Positions 39,987 to 49,361 of a stretch of 64,000 nt of DNA are shown here, piece by piece. Made by a program: the position numbers and the translations under genes. This stretch comes from Cytophagales bacterium. Lineage in GTDB: Bacteria > Bacteroidota > Bacteroidia > Cytophagales > Flammeovirgaceae. The stretch's first letter is position 1; each line of letters opens with the position of its first letter. The notes under the pieces were generated by a model. It made no database searches, was not told the origin of the DNA, and worked only from the letters and a program-made list of their open reading frames with translations. Location of the stretch: contig JANWWC010000001.1 in assembly GCA_025056215.1 (NCBI GenBank), forward strand, positions 186,001 through 250,000, written 5' to 3'.

Positions 39987-42647
39987 TTAAAAACCAATAG
40001 GTTTAGACGAAGCCAACATTTCGTGTTGCTCATTAAATTCTTCAACATCTTCCAAGGTAAGAGTAGAAAGCATCTGAGCATCGTATTCTTGAGCAGAAAT
40101 TTTAGAGAGTCGAATGTGTTGGTTGCGAATAGCCTTTTCGACAATTTTACGAACAGAGCGCGCGTTCCCAAAAAACTTATTTCGTTGCTGATAAAGCTTG
40201 TTAATAAACTTTTGAAGATGTTGAGCGGCTTGGGGGTCGGGAGTAAGGTTTTCTTTGCTCAGCATGCGCAATGCTACTTGATAAAGCTCTTCAGCATCGA
40301 GATCTTCAAAATAAAACTCACGATCGAAACGCGATCTCAAGCCTGGATTTGCATCCAAAAATTTTTTCATTTCTTCTGGATAACCTGCTACAATCACCAC
40401 AAACTCGAAGCGATAGTCTTCCATCGCTTTGAGCAAAATTTCAATGGCTTCAATTCCGAAATCGTGATGTGCATCCGTAGGAGCAAGCGCATAAGCTTCA
40501 TCGATAAACAAAACGCCACCTTTGGCACGTTCGATGATTTCCTTAGTTTTAAGAGCGGTTTGTCCTACATAACCCGCTACAAGGTGTTGCCGGTCGCATT
40601 CTACTAAATGACCGCGTTCTAAAATGCCTAATGCTTTGTAAATGTTCGCAATAATGCGCGCTACAGTAGTTTTGCCAGTGCCTGGGTTTCCTTTAAACAC
40701 CGTATGCAGAGAGAATTTTCCTAAGACTTCTTTATGAGTAAGTTTGTAGAACCTAACGAGTTGAACGAGTTCTTTGATTTCTTTTTTCACTTTTGTTAAA
40801 CCCGTCAGCGAGTCAAGTTCTGATAAAGCTTCTTGTAATGCTGCTTCGTCAATAGGAATATTAGGAAGAGCACATTTTTTCTTTTCTAGGATAGGCATTA
40901 CATCTTCACGGGTAATTGTATGAACTATTTCTAATGTTCGATCTTGTTCAGGAACACTGCGCATCACCCTCAATCCAAGATTTTTTTTGGCTTCTTCCAC
41001 TAAATTCTGTACAAATCGCGCATTTCCGAAAGACTTATCTCTATTGCGATATTCTTCAATGATATGCCTATGCAAAAGCTGCTTGGCTTCCTCAGTAAAC
41101 TTGACTTTCTTTTGCTCTGCAAGTTTCTCAAGAATTTCTAAAAGTTCTTGAGGGAGATAGTCAGGAAATTCAAGAGTTAGTCCGAAGCGAGAGCGCAATC
41201 CTGGGTTAGAGTTAAGAAAAACATTCATTTCTTTAGGGTAGCCCGCTGCAAAAATTGCAATATCACCTTCCCCATCAGACATTTCTTTGACGAGCACTTC
41301 AATTGCTTCATTGCCGTAATCTCTTTCGTCGTCAGAAGAACGCATTAAGGAATAAGCTTCGTCAATAAAAAGGACTCCTCCGCGAGCGTTTTCAATCATT
41401 TCTTTCACTTTTGGAGCGGTTTGTCCGATATATTGTCCAATCAGCTCATTCCGCCCTACTTCGTGTACAGTTCCATTAGAGAGCAATCCTAATTTATGAT
41501 AAATTTTGCCGATAAGTTTAGCAATCGTAGTTTTGCCCGTACCAGGATTCCCCAAAAAGACCGAATGCAAATTAAACTTTTTATCTTCTTGGAACCCCAT
41601 TGATTCGCGCAGTTTTAAAAATTCAATGTATTCCACATAGTCATGAATGCGTTTTTTAATTTCATGGAGCCCTACCAAACTGTCCAACTCTTTTAACAAA
41701 ACTTCTAATGATTCTTCTACAGGCGCGTGTTTTTCTTCTCGTTTAGCACTTTTTCTTTCAAGGGTTCCGCTAAACATCGTATCAAAGCTATCGAAAGGCT
41801 CTGAAAAATCTTCTAATATAGTATCAGTAAATTCTACTTCTCCTGGAATATCTTTCCAGCCTGCTCGAAAATAGAGCACTGCTATTAGAATATCCATGAA
41901 AATAATTTCTAATCTATAGATATCTTTTGGCCAAGGAATTTCGTTGGCATACAATGTGGTGTGTATGAGAGTGTCTTTGTATTTAAGAGGAGGATTTAAA
42001 ACGACAAGTTCATTTTGAGAGATTTTTAAAAAGCCGTTGCTATCATAACAATTTAAAATGAATTCTAATGTGAGAGGAGATGTATTAAAGTGGCCCTCTA
42101 CAGCAATTTCAATACCTATTGCAGGCGTGTTAGCATCGAATTCTTTTAAATACAATCGTCCATTTGAGGAAGGCAGATTTGAATCCCGATACAAAGAAAT
42201 TTTTTTGAGCATAAAATAGGGATTGTCGTCCTCGCTGGTAATGCCGACATTATGAATGTATAAAGTATCTTTTCCTGCAAATTCTCCGTTTATCCACACT
42301 TCACAGAGGTATTCTCCTGCAGACCAAAAATGGCTTCCTCGATAGTTTCTAACATTTACATAAAAACGAGCTATAGCATCGCTAGGGTATACTTCAGACT
42401 GTATAGCGTTTTCTGCATATGGCTTGTCGTAATTATCACTTTTAAAAAACTTAACAGCTACATAAGCAGTCCACGTTTCTATATCAAATTTTTTGTTAAA
42501 CAAACTAACCTCCACGAACAGTGTGCCCAGTTCATTTACATCAAATACTTTTCTATACTTTCTTTTCCCATCTACAAGCGTGCTGGGCGATGTAAAAAAT
42601 TTTAATTCTTTAAATTTATACAATTTATTTTTTTTCCCGAATATCAT
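39987..42647 (-). CDS. Double AAA+ ATPase of the CbxX/CfqX (EccA-like) type
   Basis: 886 residues. Two CbxX-type AAA+ modules lie in the second two-thirds. The first has Walker [12 protein letters not shown] near 367, [13 protein letters not shown] pore region and Walker [11 protein letters not shown]; the second has [11 protein letters not shown] near 652, [13 protein letters not shown] and [10 protein letters not shown], and both end in helical lids. Residues about 1-270 are a beta-rich region, with no signal peptide, of unknown fold. The family (CbbX, EccA) remodels protein complexes with ATP. The two intact Walker A/B sets indicate two active sites. It sits next to the tRNA t6A gene without obvious connection; its target is unknown. 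Confidence 0.85.
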
Positions 42648-42684
42648 CTTAAATAAAAGTCACGATTAATAATAAACTGTTTTT

Positions 42685-44559
42685 ATGTTTCAAAAGTTGC
42701 AATTTTACTTGAGCTTGTTCAGAAATATTTTAAGAACCTTTGTATGGTTTTATTCGGCATGTGTAAGCGCAAAAGAACTGCTCATCGATAAAAATTTCAG
42801 TAGCGAATTTCTAAATTCTTGCATATATTATTGGAAAGATACTAGTCTAAAAAGAATTGATGAAATCATTTTGATTAGTTCAGCTTTTAGTCCTCTGAAG
42901 AATGCACAAGTGAACTTTGGATATTCAAAATATTATCATTACTTTACTTTTGCAATTCATAACACTACTTCAGAAACGCAATATTTGGTTTTAGATATTC
43001 AACAACATTTTATTGAACAATTAAAGCTCTACCAACAAACCGACTCTCTTGTTTCTTTTGTAGTTGAATACAGCATATTTACGGAGTTTCATAAACGAGA
43101 TAAACAGTTCTTAGAGGTTTCTAGTTGTGCTGTTCCTTTGAAAATAGAACCGTATCAAAAAAAACGTTACTGGATTACAGCTAGCAATCGAATTGCTTCG
43201 CTTAGATTGCCTATCTACTTAAAATCATATGAAGTATTCTTGAAGGACAGAACTGCAAAAGATTTTGTGTGGGGAGGACTGATAGGCTTTTTGTTAGTTA
43301 TTTTCATAGGAGGGGTGCTTACTTACATAAGTACTTTTAATAAAATAACTCTGTTTTTTTGCTTATATATTCTTTCGCTTTTATTCTTTGTTCTGAGTGC
43401 GGCAGGCTACGGCTTTACAATGATATGGAGTCATTATCCACAATTTGAATTTCATTCACGCGCTATTGCTCTTATTTTGATTCATGTTTTTATGACTCTT
43501 TTTTTCTGTCACTTTTTTGAAATCAAAAAACATTACGCTTTGGCTTATACCTTTTTGCAAGGCTTAATTTTTCTTTATTTTTTGTTGTTATCCACAGTAT
43601 TTTTTAATTTTCTAGACTCTTATAAACAGTCGTTAGTCATTTTTTCTAACGTGTTGCATGTGATTGTCAATTTTATTATCATTTTTGTTGCCATTTTATT
43701 ATGGAGAAAAAAAAATCTGAATGCGAAGTTTTATCTAGTATCTATTTTTCCATTGCTTATTGTAGCGATATTAGTTTTATTGCGAAATTTTAAAGTCGTT
43801 GCTGATGTTCCACTTTTATATTTTCTTCAACCATATGCAATTGCTTTTCATACTATTATGGTTGCTTATGGCGTATCTTATCGCTTCAAGCAAATTCAAG
43901 ATGAAAAATCAAAACTTTTGTTAGCCATCCATCAACAGCAGAAAAAAACAGTAGATGCCATTCTTGAAGCGCAAGAAAAAGAGCGCGTCCGAATCGGAAC
44001 AGAACTTCACGACGGTTTGGGGCATCTTCTTGCAATAATTAAACTTCGTCTTTCTGAAATTTCTTCATTTGATACTTTTTTATCTCAATTTCAGATTATT
44101 AATTCTTTATTTGATAAAGTTATTCAAGAGGTTCGTTTGATTTCTCATAACTTAGCGCCTAGTATCTTGCTTCAGGTGGGTCTCAGAGCTGCAATTATTG
44201 AATTTATATCAGAAATTCAAAAAAATTATTCCTCCCCTACGATTTACTATTATGTTTCTCTTCAAGAAGAATCTATCAGCCGTGAACTGAAAGTCGGAAT
44301 TTTTCGCATTTTACAAGAAGTAGTTACTAATGCTTTAAAGCATGCCCATGCTCAATACATTAGTATTCAGCTTACGAACGAGAACAACTCTATTTTTCTT
44401 TTGATAGAGGACGACGGCATTGGCTTCAACTTCCATCAGGTAGCAGATTCTGCACATGGCTTATGGTACATCAAACAAAGAGCAGAATCTTTAGGCGCAA
44501 AAGTTTTCGAAATTGATACAAAACCCAAAAAAGGTACTGTCATTTTTGTGGAATTTTAA
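42685..44559 (+). CDS. 7TMR-DISM sensor histidine kinase
   Basis: 624 residues. Signal peptide (about 1-29), DISMED2-type extracellular sensor (about 35-185), seven TM helices (about 193-385), HisKA_3 dimerisation domain with the phosphorylated His442 in TELHDGLGHL, and a C-terminal HATPase domain (FRILQEVVTNALKHAHA for the N-box, VEDDGIGFNF-like DDGIGF). It should phosphorylate the LuxR-type regulator encoded 44 nt downstream, forming a NarL-class two-component system. The ligand is unknown; DISMED2 domains often bind carbohydrates. Confidence 0.92.
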   Translation: MFQKLQFYLSLFRNILRTFVWFYSACVSAKELLIDKNFSSEFLNSCIYYWKDTSLKRIDEIILISSAFSPLKNAQVNFGYSKYYHYFTFAIHNTTSETQYLVLDIQQHFIEQLKLYQQTDSLVSFVVEYSIFTEFHKRDKQFLEVSSCAVPLKIEPYQKKRYWITASNRIASLRLPIYLKSYEVFLKDRTAKDFVWGGLIGFLLVIFIGGVLTYISTFNKITLFFCLYILSLLFFVLSAAGYGFTMIWSHYPQFEFHSRAIALILIHVFMTLFFCHFFEIKKHYALAYTFLQGLIFLYFLLLSTVFFNFLDSYKQSLVIFSNVLHVIVNFIIIFVAILLWRKKNLNAKFYLVSIFPLLIVAILVLLRNFKVVADVPLLYFLQPYAIAFHTIMVAYGVSYRFKQIQDEKSKLLLAIHQQQKKTVDAILEAQEKERVRIGTELHDGLGHLLAIIKLRLSEISSFDTFLSQFQIINSLFDKVIQEVRLISHNLAPSILLQVGLRAAIIEFISEIQKNYSSPTIYYYVSLQEESISRELKVGIFRILQEVVTNALKHAHAQYISIQLTNENNSIFLLIEDDGIGFNFHQVADSAHGLWYIKQRAESLGAKVFEIDTKPKKGTVIFVEF

Positions 44560-44603
44560 ATCTTTTTGAATCTTGTAATCAAAAAATTAAATTATTTCAA
44601 GTC

Positions 44604-45227
44604 ATGAAAATTTTATTAATAGACGACCACCGCCTTTTTCTTGACGGAATTGTTGAAATTTTCGCCAAGAATGAAAAACTAAAAACTTCTCAAATTTTTA
44701 AAAGCTATAGTTATCATCAAGTTATTCAAATGCTAGAAACTCAAAGAGTTGATCTGGTGATTTGCGATATAAATTTGCCTGATAATTCTGGTTTAAATGC
44801 TATTCCCGTCATAAAGTCACTTTGTCCGAAAGCAAAGATTTTAATGCTTTCCATTTATAACCAACCCGAAATTATTCAGCGCGCTATTCGATTAGGCGCT
44901 AACGGATTTATCAACAAAGACATAGAACAAAAAGAATTGTTAGAATCTATTCAAATCGTCATGCAAGGAGGTCTGTATTTGAGTGAAAAAACTCTTAAAG
45001 CTTTAGAAAAAGAAACTCCACATCAAGAAGAAGAACTTACTAAACGCGAAATTGAAATATTAGGATGTATTATTAAAGAGATGTCAAACGCTGAAATAGC
45101 AGAAAAACTTTTTATTAGCCCGCGAACTGTAGAAACTCACCGCAAAAATATTCTTCGAAAGACTAACAATCATACTGTTATAGGATTAATAAAATACGCC
45201 TATAGAAAAGGAATTTCCCTTGAATAA
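44604..45227 (+). CDS. LuxR/NarL-family response regulator
   Basis: 207 residues. Receiver domain (about 1-120) with DD at 7-8, phospho-acceptor Asp55 in LVICDINLPDNSG and the switch Lys in FINKDIEQ; HTH-LuxR domain (about 143-205) with TKREIEILGCI and LFISPRTVETHRKNIL. It is the cognate regulator of the upstream 7TMR-DISM kinase. The target promoters are not visible here. Confidence 0.94.
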   Translation: MKILLIDDHRLFLDGIVEIFAKNEKLKTSQIFKSYSYHQVIQMLETQRVDLVICDINLPDNSGLNAIPVIKSLCPKAKILMLSIYNQPEIIQRAIRLGANGFINKDIEQKELLESIQIVMQGGLYLSEKTLKALEKETPHQEEELTKREIEILGCIIKEMSNAEIAEKLFISPRTVETHRKNILRKTNNHTVIGLIKYAYRKGISLE

Positions 45228-45237
45228 CTCAATCCAT

Positions 45238-45267
45238 TTTGCTAAATTAGAGGTTTAATTTAGCAAA
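45238..45267 (+). promoter_or_regulatory. Perfect 12-bp inverted repeat in the leader of the MksE-like gene
   Basis: TTTGCTAAATTA at 45238-45249 and its exact complement TAATTTAGCAAA at 45256-45267 enclose the 6-nt loop GAGGTT. The right arm ends 2 nt before the ATG at 45270. There is no T-run, so it is not a typical terminator. It could be an operator for a dimeric regulator or an RNA hairpin presenting or hiding the only GAGG sequence before the start. Confidence 0.8.
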
Positions 45268-45269
45268 CT

Positions 45270-45821
45270 ATGAATCTTCCTAAGCAGACACGCGATATTT
45301 TTGAAATTTTAAGCAAAGGTCAATTTATATGTTCTATGGGCAAATATGCTCATTTGTACGACCTTCTCAAGAATCCAGATAATTTCGATTTGCTTTACGA
45401 TTATTTTCAAGCTATTGGATTTTGTTTAGAAAGTGGAAATGGGTACTTTTATTTTAGCAAAATACAAGAAAGCACTAGTGATATATCCGAAAAACTCCTA
45501 CAATTTGAACGATATATAGATATCTTAGACTTGTTTGCTAGCTTAGATTCTAAAATTAAAGTAGGCGATACTTTCACTCCCGCCAAAATAGCAGAAGAAT
45601 GTGCAGACAACCCTGTTTTGCGCCTAAAACTCAAGAATATCAGCACTAGCAAAAGAGACGATAATATTATCAACATCATACGAAGTATCGTAGAAAAGCT
45701 CGAAAAAGAAACTTTTATTGAAAAAATCGATGAAGAAGAGGAACGCTATAAAGTATTAGATTCTTTTCAATACTTAGAGCAATTGGTCATGCAGATTTGT
45801 ATCAACGAATCATCTGAATAA
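45270..45821 (+). CDS. MksE-like condensin subunit (kleisin partner, tandem winged-helix type)
   Basis: 183 residues, acidic and mostly helical, without signal or TM. The arrangement matches Bacteroidota proteins annotated as condensin subunit MksE: RDIFEILSKGQFICS at the N-terminus, a YDYFQAIGFCLESGNGYFYF winged-helix segment, FASLDSKIKVGDTFTPAKIA, and a C-terminal wing ending in YKVLDSFQYLEQLVM. MksE works with MksB (SMC-like) and MksF in chromosome condensation, or as JetB in Wadjet plasmid defence. Neither partner nor JetD is in this window. A perfect inverted repeat precedes the start; an esterase gene follows after 14 nt. Confidence 0.65.
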   Translation: MNLPKQTRDIFEILSKGQFICSMGKYAHLYDLLKNPDNFDLLYDYFQAIGFCLESGNGYFYFSKIQESTSDISEKLLQFERYIDILDLFASLDSKIKVGDTFTPAKIAEECADNPVLRLKLKNISTSKRDDNIINIIRSIVEKLEKETFIEKIDEEEERYKVLDSFQYLEQLVMQICINESSE

Positions 45822-45835
45822 ATATCATTTTAGGC

Positions 45836-46666
45836 ATGTATATCCAGGCAGATACTACCCTTTTGCTATGGCAAGAGAGGCCAGCTTTTGCAAAAGGAAA
45901 TAGCGAAACAGATATTCCTAAGATGCAAATATTTTTATCTCCTCCAGAAATTAATTCAAAGACAGGAGTTATTATTTGTCCAGGTGGCGCTTACGGACGC
46001 CTTTCTACTGAAAAAGAAGGGCGAGAGGTTGCTCTATGGTTAAATACTCTAGGCATCTCAGCTTTTGTACTTCATTATCGCTTAGGAACAAACGGATATC
46101 AGCATCCAGTTCCTTTAATAGATTTACAGCGCGCAATGGTAGTAGTTAAACAAAATGCAATACGTTGGAACTTAGACACTGCAAAAATCGGCGTTTTAGG
46201 ATTCTCGGCAGGAGGGCACCTGACTTCTACCCTTGGAACTCATTTTGACAAACTCTACTACACCCCTACTGAAGAAAAAGAGCTTTCGATTTCTGTTCGC
46301 CCTGATTTTATGATGCTCGTCTATCCTGTAATTACAATGCAAGATAGTTTTACGCATAACACTTCCCGAAAAAATCTGTTAGGAGATATTCCTTCTCAAG
46401 AACTTAAAAATTTGTTGTCTAACGAACTGCAAGTAACTTCTCAAACTCCTCCTACTTTTATCACTCATACTTATGATGATGCATCGGTGCCTGTTGAGAA
46501 TAGTTTGTTGTTTTTTGAAGCGCTTCGAAAGGCGAAAGTTCCTGCCGAACTGCATATTTACGCTTCTGGTGGACATGGATATGGCTTAAGAAGACAACTT
46601 GGCGTTCATGCCGAATGGTACAAGCATGCTGAGAATTGGTTGAGATCTTCTGGTTTTATCAAATAA
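45836..46666 (+). CDS. Alpha/beta hydrolase of the acetyl-esterase (BD-FAE) type
   Basis: 276 residues, no signal peptide in the predicted start. The oxyanion segment is VIICPGGAYGRLS (about 45-57), the nucleophile Ser124 is in VLGFSAGGHLTST, the acid Asp is in HTYDDASVPVENS and the His is in SGGHGYGLR. Family members remove acetyl or feruloyl groups from xylo- or other oligosaccharides. A cytoplasmic location is expected without a signal. It converges with a GH2 beta-galactosidase-like gene, which also fits glycan use, though they are on opposite strands. Confidence 0.88.
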   Translation: MYIQADTTLLLWQERPAFAKGNSETDIPKMQIFLSPPEINSKTGVIICPGGAYGRLSTEKEGREVALWLNTLGISAFVLHYRLGTNGYQHPVPLIDLQRAMVVVKQNAIRWNLDTAKIGVLGFSAGGHLTSTLGTHFDKLYYTPTEEKELSISVRPDFMMLVYPVITMQDSFTHNTSRKNLLGDIPSQELKNLLSNELQVTSQTPPTFITHTYDDASVPVENSLLFFEALRKAKVPAELHIYASGGHGYGLRRQLGVHAEWYKHAENWLRSSGFIK

Positions 46667-46673
46667 ATTAAAG

Positions 46674-49361
46674 CTAAGGTAGTTTTCTGAGCCGAACTCC
46701 ATTCAGAATAGGATTTCCCTTCTTAGGTACAAATTTTATTTCTATTCCTTTATCGTTTTCGACAAAAATATGAAACTTAAAGGCTACTGCCCTATGTTCT
46801 CCATATTGTTTGGCAATATTAAGATTTTCTAAATAAAGTTTTTCATTAATCCATACATCAAACTCGCGTTGAATAAGTTCAGGGGCTTTTGCTGCATCAG
46901 CTTCTAAGTTATTAAGAATGATTTTTTTTTCTTTTTCGCTTAAAAGCTCCGCAAAGTGAAGTTCTAACTCATAACTTCCGTTAGCTACGTCAAAACGAAA
47001 TCCTTGCAAACTATCGCGTTGCGTTTGATAAAGCGGTTCTCTGTCGGTTCCAAAAATTTCTTTCTCAGTTCCTACGCGAGAGCCATTCCACGTCATAAAT
47101 CGGTTTCCTCCTATGTAACCCCAACTTCCCTTTGTATAAGGTTTTTCTGCAATCCATACTAAATTTTTTTGTTGTTCTACAAAATCGAAATGGCTTCCTA
47201 CATTTACATTAATTTCTTCAAATGTTTCATCAGCAAGATTTTCAGGAATAAACTTCATTGTTACCCATACTAAATCTTTGACGATTTTACCATTTTTTCC
47301 AATAGCTTTACATGAAAGCTCATTTCTTCCATTTACCATTGCAACATCAAACACGCATTTTTTAAGTGAATCAGGTTGTTTTTTGCCAAGAGAAACTCCA
47401 TTGAGCATTAGTTCTACATCGCTACAATTAGAATAAACGGTAATAGGTTGTAAAACTACGCTTTCATTTTTAGGCACTATTGCGGTGCGAAGCCTCCAGT
47501 CAGAGGTAGCAATCTTAAGAACAGGTTCCTCTGAAAGCATCGCCTTGTAGAAGTAAAAAATATCTTTTTTCTCTCTATTATACTTGAGAATCCCCTTGTT
47601 GTTGATATGTGGATTTGTATCTTTTCTTCCCTCCGAATTAAAATCTACGAAATTCCATATGGCAGCGCCTGTAACTTGAGGTGTTTGCAAAATTGCTTTT
47701 AAATATTTTTGGTGAAACAACTCAAACCATTCCACAGAAAAATCAAAACGAGAAGGATTGTGCGCATGAATGCGCTCATCACAACCAGCGCCATATTCGC
47801 TAATAATGATAGGAGTTTGGGGAAACTCCGTAGTAGCGCGCTTTATAAATTCTTCAAATTTTTCAAATCCTTCTACATACCATCCAAAGTATAAATTCCA
47901 TCCACAAATTTGGGTAACATCAATCAGATTCAAACTTTTATAAGCTTCATAATCACTATGGTGAGCAATTACTGTATAGCGATAAGGATCTTCTGCGCGT
48001 GCCACCGAATCCAGATAGCGCGCCAAACTAGCAATGCGAGATTTGTTAGCTTCGAATACTTCTTTTTGGTGGAAACGAGCTAGTAAAATTTCATTCATAA
48101 AACCCCACATCACAATAGAAGGGTGATTATAATGTTGGCGAATCATTTCTACCACTTGCGTGTAAGAAGTTTGCTTGAATCTTTCTGTATAACTTATCTC
48201 ATTCACAATCGGAATTTCTTCCCAAGCAATAATCCCTAAGCGATCGCAACTTTCTAAAATAACAGGGTCTTGAGGATAATGAGCAATTCTAATAAAATTA
48301 GCACCCATTTCCTTCAATAACTTCATATCTTGAAGATGAAGCTCATCAGGCAACGCATTTCCCAAACTTGGGTAATCCTGATGTCGATTAGCTCCAAGTA
48401 GTTTTAAAGGCTTGTCGTTTAAAAAGAATCCTTTTTGTGCATCGAGTCTGAACCACCGAAAAGCGGTTGTAATATTTAAAAAATCGTGTCGAGTTTCTTT
48501 TGTTTGGTTGAGAAGTTCTACTTCTACCTTATACAAATAAGGACTTTCGGGAGACCATAGCTTTGGATTTTCCACTCCAAAAGATATATAAAAAGATTGT
48601 TTTTCAAACGGTTTTAGGATAATTGGTTTTTCTTGGGTTTTCTGAACGACCGTTCTCCCTGCACTATCCTTTAAAGTAATACGAATAAAGGATTTTTGTA
48701 AAGTTTTATGCTCATTTCTTAATTCTCCACTTAGGTGCACTTCAAAACTTCGCTGGTCCTTGTCTTTTTGTGTTCTTACAAATACACCATCAGAGGCGTA
48801 ATTCATCATTTCAAAATGGAGAGGCTCGACTATTTCAAGAAATACATCTCGATAAATACCGCCAAAAAATGTAAAGTCAGCTGAAAGCGGTGCAATATCA
48901 GAATTGACGCGATTATCTACGCGCACAGCGAGCAAGTTCGGACGGTTGAAAAAAATCTTATCAGTAATATCGAATCGGAATGCAGTATATCCTCCTTCGT
49001 GCCTTCCTACAAAATTTCCGTTTACAAATACATCAGTAATTTGGTTAGCTCCTTCAAAAAATAAGTATATTTTTTTGTTCTGAGCAGATTGAGGCAGAAT
49101 AAAAATTTTTCTGTACCAACCAATTCCTGCATAATATCCATCTTCATCATCCAGTGCGTCTATATTGTTCCATGTGTGAGGAAGATGAACAGTTTGCCAC
49201 TTTTCAGTCTCAAAAAAATAAATTTGTTCTGCTAAAGGAACTTCCCCTTTCTGAAATTTCCAGCCTTCATTGATAGTAAATTTAAGGCGTTGAGCGATGA
49301 GAGTCGTACAAATTCCTAATAGAAAAACGCCCATCAGAGCAGCACTCTTTTTCATTTTCAA
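46674..49361 (-). CDS. Exported GH2 beta-galactosidase/glucuronidase-like glycoside hydrolase
   Basis: 895 residues. Signal peptide (about 1-24, ending LIAQ). GH2 sugar-binding domain (about 25-185), immunoglobulin-like domain (about 186-295), TIM barrel (about 300-610) with acid/base Glu424 in IVMWGFMNE and nucleophile Glu522 in PIIISEYGAGC, and a C-terminal part with an Ig-like segment and a malectin-like domain (about 735-890, NVGSHFDF ... ELHFAELLSE). It should cleave terminal beta-linked sugars in the periplasm or outside. Substrate specificity is unresolved. A deacylase gene lies at its 3' side. Confidence 0.9.
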   Translation of the reverse strand: MKMKKSAALMGVFLLGICTTLIAQRLKFTINEGWKFQKGEVPLAEQIYFFETEKWQTVHLPHTWNNIDALDDEDGYYAGIGWYRKIFILPQSAQNKKIYLFFEGANQITDVFVNGNFVGRHEGGYTAFRFDITDKIFFNRPNLLAVRVDNRVNSDIAPLSADFTFFGGIYRDVFLEIVEPLHFEMMNYASDGVFVRTQKDKDQRSFEVHLSGELRNEHKTLQKSFIRITLKDSAGRTVVQKTQEKPIILKPFEKQSFYISFGVENPKLWSPESPYLYKVEVELLNQTKETRHDFLNITTAFRWFRLDAQKGFFLNDKPLKLLGANRHQDYPSLGNALPDELHLQDMKLLKEMGANFIRIAHYPQDPVILESCDRLGIIAWEEIPIVNEISYTERFKQTSYTQVVEMIRQHYNHPSIVMWGFMNEILLARFHQKEVFEANKSRIASLARYLDSVARAEDPYRYTVIAHHSDYEAYKSLNLIDVTQICGWNLYFGWYVEGFEKFEEFIKRATTEFPQTPIIISEYGAGCDERIHAHNPSRFDFSVEWFELFHQKYLKAILQTPQVTGAAIWNFVDFNSEGRKDTNPHINNKGILKYNREKKDIFYFYKAMLSEEPVLKIATSDWRLRTAIVPKNESVVLQPITVYSNCSDVELMLNGVSLGKKQPDSLKKCVFDVAMVNGRNELSCKAIGKNGKIVKDLVWVTMKFIPENLADETFEEINVNVGSHFDFVEQQKNLVWIAEKPYTKGSWGYIGGNRFMTWNGSRVGTEKEIFGTDREPLYQTQRDSLQGFRFDVANGSYELELHFAELLSEKEKKIILNNLEADAAKAPELIQREFDVWINEKLYLENLNIAKQYGEHRAVAFKFHIFVENDKGIEIKFVPKKGNPILNGVRLRKLP

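Follow-up and report, generated by a model that had tools for sequence, protein, structure and literature searches.

The mksE gene and its neighbourhood

The gene considered here lies in a 64 kb stretch of DNA (the window, a term used for this whole stretch) on contig C9 of genome G000, an assembly of 2.83 Mb in 17 contigs that is 99.5% complete. An unbroken open reading frame on the forward strand, whose ends in the list of open reading frames are exactly 45270 and 45821 (C9:231270-231821, + in the genome), encodes a protein of 183 amino acids. This gene is mksE, which specifies the KITE (tandem winged-helix) subunit of an MksBEF-type condensin, as identified by PF21980, an AlphaFold2 model, and fold matches in the PDB. 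Two genes precede mksE on the same strand: a sensor histidine kinase gene (42685-44559; 7TMR-DISM, HisKA_3, and HATPase_c domains by Pfam; present in the reading frame list) and, 44 bp further on, a gene for a NarL/LuxR-type response regulator (44604-45227; PF00072 Response_reg, E 9e-24; PF00196 GerE, E 2e-17), which ends 42 bp before mksE. An esterase gene (45836-46666, +; BD-FAE, S9, or pectin-acetylesterase-like by Pfam, below the cut-off in NCBIfam) begins 14 bp after mksE and is possibly a passenger on its transcript. Pfam thus bears out the first-pass annotation, which had placed a two-component regulator gene before mksE and an esterase gene after it. Divergent from the kinase-regulator-mksE unit and 37 bp from it is a gene for a double-AAA ATPase with two AAA and two AAA_lid_6 stretches (39987-42647); neighbouring genes for a CheR methyltransferase and a CheB methylesterase occupy positions 1097-2562 of the window.

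A perfect inverted repeat with 12-nt arms and a 6-nt spacer (45238-45267, no strand assigned) lies between the regulator gene and mksE, with 2 nt separating its end from the mksE ATG. The repeat has a fold z of -2.17 and is not a classical intrinsic terminator, because no T-run follows it; no terminator-like sites are found in the region 42500-46900. The repeat occurs at a single site in the genome when up to 3 mismatches are allowed, and the idea that it is an operator common to other promoters is therefore unsupported. A promoter pattern that we take to be of the Bacteroidota type has 4 matches in the window against 4.3 expected, none of them near mksE.

Among window reading frames of at least 60 amino acids (overlapping frames thinned), the frame at 45270-45821 is the sole match to the MksE profile, and profiles of MksB, MksF, and MksG-like proteins have no match. 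The earlier description of mksE as lacking MksB and MksF is accurate for the 64 kb window and wrong for the genome, where both are present.

Identity and predicted fold of MksE

The mksE product matches Pfam PF21980 (MksE) with E 4.1e-34 and 118.7 bits, above the curated cut-off of 27, and covers the profile from end to end (1-163 of 163). NCBIfam yields no match to the protein up to E 1, and PADLOC yields a weak JetB match (E 0.0028) together with one unrelated weak match. In the AlphaFold2 model, which was built from 47 aligned sequences (mean pLDDT 89.2, pTM 0.83), a long helix connects two winged-helix-like halves, giving the MukE-like tandem winged-helix KITE fold. All 11 Foldseek matches below 0.001 are MukEF, MukBEF, or JetABC entries (best E 5.7e-5). 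The VIA ranking is led by chain 3euh_E of a MukE-MukF entry (Z 11.3, 158 residues, rmsd 3.4); ranks 1-7 are all MukE, MukEF, or MukBEF entries (Z 11.3 to 9.3), the MukE dimer 7v8p scoring Z 11.0. JetABC entries follow at Z 9.2 to 8.1, and at Z 7.3 and lower there are one further JetABC entry and unrelated winged-helix proteins. Since the model matches MukE and JetABC chains, the protein belongs with MukE, MksE, and JetB among the KITE subunits.

The nearest solved fold is therefore MukE of E. coli MukBEF, although the MukE chains share just 11-14% identity with this MksE in the VIA alignments. Sequence searches against PDB chains return one match for the single MksE sequence (E 0.33) and nothing relevant for the MksE profile. 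The protein has its own peculiarities: a nearly invariant asparagine (N23) is replaced, and a 3-residue stretch and a C-terminal tail found in relatives of clade B are missing. The first-pass annotation had recognized an MksE-like protein and called for two winged helices in a fold prediction; profile and predicted fold agree with it on both points, and the frame at 45270-45821 encodes a genuine MksE.

MksB and MksF elsewhere in the genome

Both partners of MksE are encoded on contig C10. The mksB reading frame (C10:317735-321412, -) encodes 1225 amino acids and contains the single genome match of an MksB profile built from relatives (C10:317765-321397, E 5.9e-219), with no internal stop; the protein also matches PF12128/DUF3584 (E 3.4e-55). 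Its translation keeps the motifs that we take to be Walker A (GKNNLGKTT), the signature (GSEGTD), and Walker B with the catalytic glutamate (MIDEVGKL), so that the genome carrying mksE also encodes an SMC-like MksB whose ATPase motifs are intact. Against PDB chains the MksB profile gives matches of the coiled-coil type only, Smc6 included. PF13558, a Walker B family, proved unsuitable as a probe: it picked up only SbcC and RecF (named by reading the matched proteins) and missed MksB, which is detected only with the profile made from relatives.

The kleisin MksF is encoded by a reading frame of 404 amino acids (C10:366334-367548, -), within which lies the single genome match of an MksF profile, likewise built from relatives (C10:366406-367521, E 1.9e-58). 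Up to E 0.1, Pfam yields nothing for MksF, whose profile has no match among PDB chains at E 10. The MksF of relative L099, which is 41% identical, was modelled with a pLDDT of 74.8 and a pTM of 0.40; the model has a winged helix at its N-terminus, a winged-like domain at its C-terminus, and a long run of helices between them. Its three Foldseek matches below 0.001 are all JetABC(D) or MukBEF chains, with chain names assigned by length and entry title. In VIA, unrelated helical bundles outrank the MukF rows, and the helical part of this model is accordingly not distinctive.

The mksB and mksF genes are about 45 kb apart on C10, and mksE is on the separate contig C9. The mksF-mksE-mksB operon, which is usual and not strictly defining, is thus absent, and the genes occupy three separate places. 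The genome-wide profile search proposed in the first-pass annotation yields one match each for MksE, MksB, and MksF, and none for JetD_C. Since PF21980 matches the genome exactly once, the frame at 45270-45821 is the only MksE found for MksB and MksF. With both partners intact elsewhere in the genome, mksE most likely encodes an ordinary component of a DNA-organising machine whose genes are scattered. It is the gene layout that is unusual; the machine is ordinary.

A common history of the three subunits

Loci within the length limits number 96 for MksE, 91 for MksF, and 85 for MksB. Quick trees used 37 rows each, chosen by hand as a spread of these loci and without family f16; careful trees of 39, 37, and 38 rows added loci including L192, with support given as ultrafast bootstrap/SH-aLRT. 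In the quick trees the proteins of this genome adjoin clade B in all three cases (98, 99, and 100). The careful MksE tree groups this genome with clade B, f16, and L192 (94/83). In the careful MksF tree it joins clade B and f16 (100/100) and, within that group, clade B alone (97/90), and in the careful MksB tree it again joins clade B and f16 (99/95), these two forming a group that excludes it (100/99). The exact sister groups of the three proteins differ among the three careful trees. Best matches by score in clade B are 48% identical for MksE, 43% for MksF, and 33% for MksB; outside clade B, in the set without f16, the corresponding values are 42%, 32%, and 30%. Identity to f16 is 39-43% for MksF and 35% for MksB.

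At the level of this group, MksE, MksF, and MksB have a common history. Because all three fall within one divergent Bacteroidota group, they look like one co-inherited complex. Their branches in the careful trees are long (0.73, 1.06, and 1.46 changes per column), which makes a changed role or relaxed constraint possible.

The long branch of MksE, its solitary place in the window, and the possibility that tandem winged helices bind DNA would all suit an MksE that works alone in some new role, for example as a DNA-binding winged-helix protein belonging to no condensin. Yet the genome has one match each for MksB and MksF, both intact and from the group to which MksE belongs, and also a single PF21980 match; we regard a stand-alone MksE as very unlikely. 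The long branch and the detachment of mksE from an operon could also be read as signs of a gene left over from a lost mks operon and now decaying; however, the mksE frame is full-length, the profile is fully covered, the fold is confident, and both partners are intact, which makes decay extremely improbable. Of the two ideas put forward in the first-pass annotation, the intact MksB and MksF, which fall in its phylogenetic group, support membership in a standard Bacteroidota MksBEF system with dispersed genes; the other, a free-standing protein that has taken on a new role, finds no support.

Arrangement of the mks genes in relatives

MksE is carried by 17 of 58 genomes (this one counted) at 22 places, 20 of which were taken with wide flanks; two within 300 bases of a contig edge were left out. 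An SMC-sized gene adjoins MksE in all 19 stretches other than that of this genome. In L029 (genome G005, same family) no MksF lies beside MksE, and MksF is found on that contig at a distance of about 154 kb. A wider scan of GTDB genomes gave 121 MksE places, of which the best 80 were kept. Both MksF and MksB are present in the stretch at 77 of these best 80 of 121 loci; two more (L076 and L142) have one partner only, in stretches that end at a contig edge. The sole locus among them with neither partner in the stretch is L138:8001-8558 (Chitinophagaceae LY-5). A solitary MksE is therefore rare, at least one partner being in the same stretch at 79 of the best 80 loci. The MksB of LY-5 (L198:9307-12960) and its MksE are on different contigs, and the 19.5 kb around MksB contain no MksE, MksF, or MksG-like gene; the dispersal of the mks genes there is apparently independent.

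Within the order, 26 of 390 genomes (this one counted) match MksE at E 1e-15; the order-wide scan also supplied the position of mksE at L188. Among 14 further loci of the order, L192 has MksE and MksB, but no MksF, in the stretch. Genomes G114 and G063, which belong to one genus of this order, have an MksE with neither MksB nor MksF in the stretch (L196:9136-9705 and L197:9422-9988); here mksE overlaps the end of an amino-acid-kinase gene, and an S41 peptidase gene lies downstream (domains scanned in L197). One of the pair additionally carries a complete mks operon (L191). The splits in LY-5, L029, L192, and L196/L197 indicate that splitting is rare yet has occurred more than once.

In clade B and f16 the three mks genes are clustered. 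One extra gene lies between mksE and mksB at 15 of 40 clade B loci, and four lie there at L092. The intervening gene, which encodes about 330-340 amino acids (e.g., L066:4067-5065), is conserved in these 15 loci; the start of the L066 product, the one scanned, resembles a signal peptide, and it has no significant Pfam match.

The exact split of this genome, with mksE, mksB, and mksF all apart, is not seen in the relatives examined. Synteny, which the first-pass annotation had wished to see compared, is a cluster in most relatives and a different split in a few, with no counterpart of the present layout; that annotation had also anticipated partners elsewhere in a conserved split arrangement, and the partners are indeed elsewhere, in a split that the relatives examined do not share. 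A solitary mksE need not imply a new function, and searches for MksBEF or Wadjet that rely on operons can overlook dispersed, complete systems. Dispersed mks genes are not treated in the accessible parts of PMC10197239 and PMC12153180.

Condensin or Wadjet

JetD_C (PF09983) is not matched in this genome; matches occur in 5 of 58 genomes and are partial in two. The JetD/MksG nuclease of Wadjet may also take another form: many class A operons have a fourth gene of the DUF7281 type, with weak similarity to JetD in the one protein scanned. Such a DUF7281/JetD-like fourth gene is present at 32 of the 40 loci outside clade B among the best 80 of 121 in the GTDB scan. The remaining 8 comprise two with space for such a gene but none present and six that are cut or have no MksB in the stretch. 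The DUF7281 type was sought in the window and in the three stretches around this genome's own mks genes, and no MksG-like gene was found in these three stretches. Nor was one found in 11 class A stretches of its own family (L029-L035 and L037-L040) or in 40 clade B and 6 f16 stretches. Where at least 900 bases follow mksB, the count is 0 of 32 clade B loci and 0 of 5 f16 loci. The genome does contain an Smc hinge (C9) and ScpA (C11); this, together with the missing JetD_C, gives MksBEF the look of a second, non-Wadjet condensin.

The presence of all three subunits, the MksE fold, the MksB ATPase motifs, and the lack of a JetD_C match here are features of an MksBEF condensin. In place of the usual mksFEB operon, however, the genes occupy three places on two contigs, and two of them lie behind two-component regulators. 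With MksBEFG and Wadjet JetABCD the system shares homologous subunits (MksE/JetB, MksB/JetC, and MksF/JetA), but it lacks a JetD_C match and a four-gene operon, and the PADLOC match to JetB is weak (E 0.0028). It differs from E. coli MukBEF in that the genome additionally has an Smc hinge and ScpA. A review (PMC10586767) describes MksBEF of P. aeruginosa as likely JetABCD minus JetD and as aiding chromosome organisation, and PMC10123090 reports an mksFEBG operon structure that is conserved among the organisms it shows.

A Wadjet plasmid-defence system (JetABCD/MksBEFG) with its nuclease encoded elsewhere too would be in keeping with the fourth gene seen at those 32 of 40 loci outside clade B; against it are the unmatched PF09983 in this genome and the absence of an MksG-like gene beside mksB at those clade B and f16 loci where at least 900 bases follow mksB. 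We consider a Wadjet system unlikely. Instead, mksE very probably belongs to a complete MksBEF condensin whose three genes are dispersed, and an auxiliary role in organising the chromosome is favoured over a Wadjet role.

Complexes of the MukBEF/MksBEF family work as an ATP-driven ring that traps DNA and extrudes it: the kleisin MksF joins the ATPase heads of an MksB dimer and is itself bound by MksE. By the same scheme, MksE of this genome would bind MksF, MksF would bridge the heads of the MksB dimer, and the ring would entrap and extrude DNA at the expense of ATP. The assembly would then act alongside Smc/ScpA as an auxiliary chromosome-organising condensin and not as a Wadjet plasmid cutter. 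Complex formation, co-expression, and a role on the chromosome are what we infer for this MksBEF.

Two-component regulators beside mksE and mksF

GerE has three matches in the genome. Two of these proteins carry a receiver domain; the third (L153) has PAS-like matches and no receiver domain. Each of the two receiver-bearing regulators is encoded directly upstream of an mks gene on the same strand, one of mksE (42 bp) and the other of mksF (3 bp). The kinase-regulator-mksF unit on C10 (L064:9334-12406, i.e., C10:366334-369406) is tight, with the kinase gene overlapping the regulator gene by 50 bp before the 3 bp gap, and mirrors the kinase-regulator-mksE unit of the window. The mksB gene has no such regulator neighbour. 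The two regulators are just 35% identical and their kinases are of different types, on which grounds a recent duplication is rejected.

This arrangement suggests a condensin under the control of signals, in which two kinase-regulator systems would co-transcribe and perhaps control MksE and MksF, so that assembly would require two environmental signals, which would jointly set the amount of complete condensin. Both receiver-bearing regulators, out of only three GerE matches, directly precede mksE or mksF; the chance of both preceding one of the 3 mks genes is about 1e-6 by a post hoc estimate for 2 regulators placed at random among an assumed 2,500 genes. However, the linkage is not seen in the relatives examined, mksB has no regulator neighbour, and the regulators and kinases are as dissimilar as described; moreover, in other splits mksE follows an amino-acid-kinase gene or a glycosyltransferase-looking gene. 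Signal control is for these reasons a doubtful proposal, and the linkage may be due to chance; it is a lead, not a result. If functional, it would offer a direct route into the regulation of a bacterial condensin.

A search of the literature, outside which most subscription papers lay, turned up neither a dispersed MksBEF nor a regulator linkage of this kind. The accessible literature combining MksB with two-component terms concerns only GacS in P. aeruginosa. Among loci L184-L197 no protein resembles either regulator; among L025-L044 and L063-L145, similar proteins are found at only 4 other loci (L110, L130, L034, and L077), and none is encoded directly upstream of an mks gene. An ancestral linkage in clade B is rejected, as only 2 of its 40 loci (L110 and L077) have a similar protein. 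At L110 the similar regulator lies 2.2 kb downstream of mksB, and at L077 a protein of 678 amino acids with a weak match lies 0.9 kb downstream.
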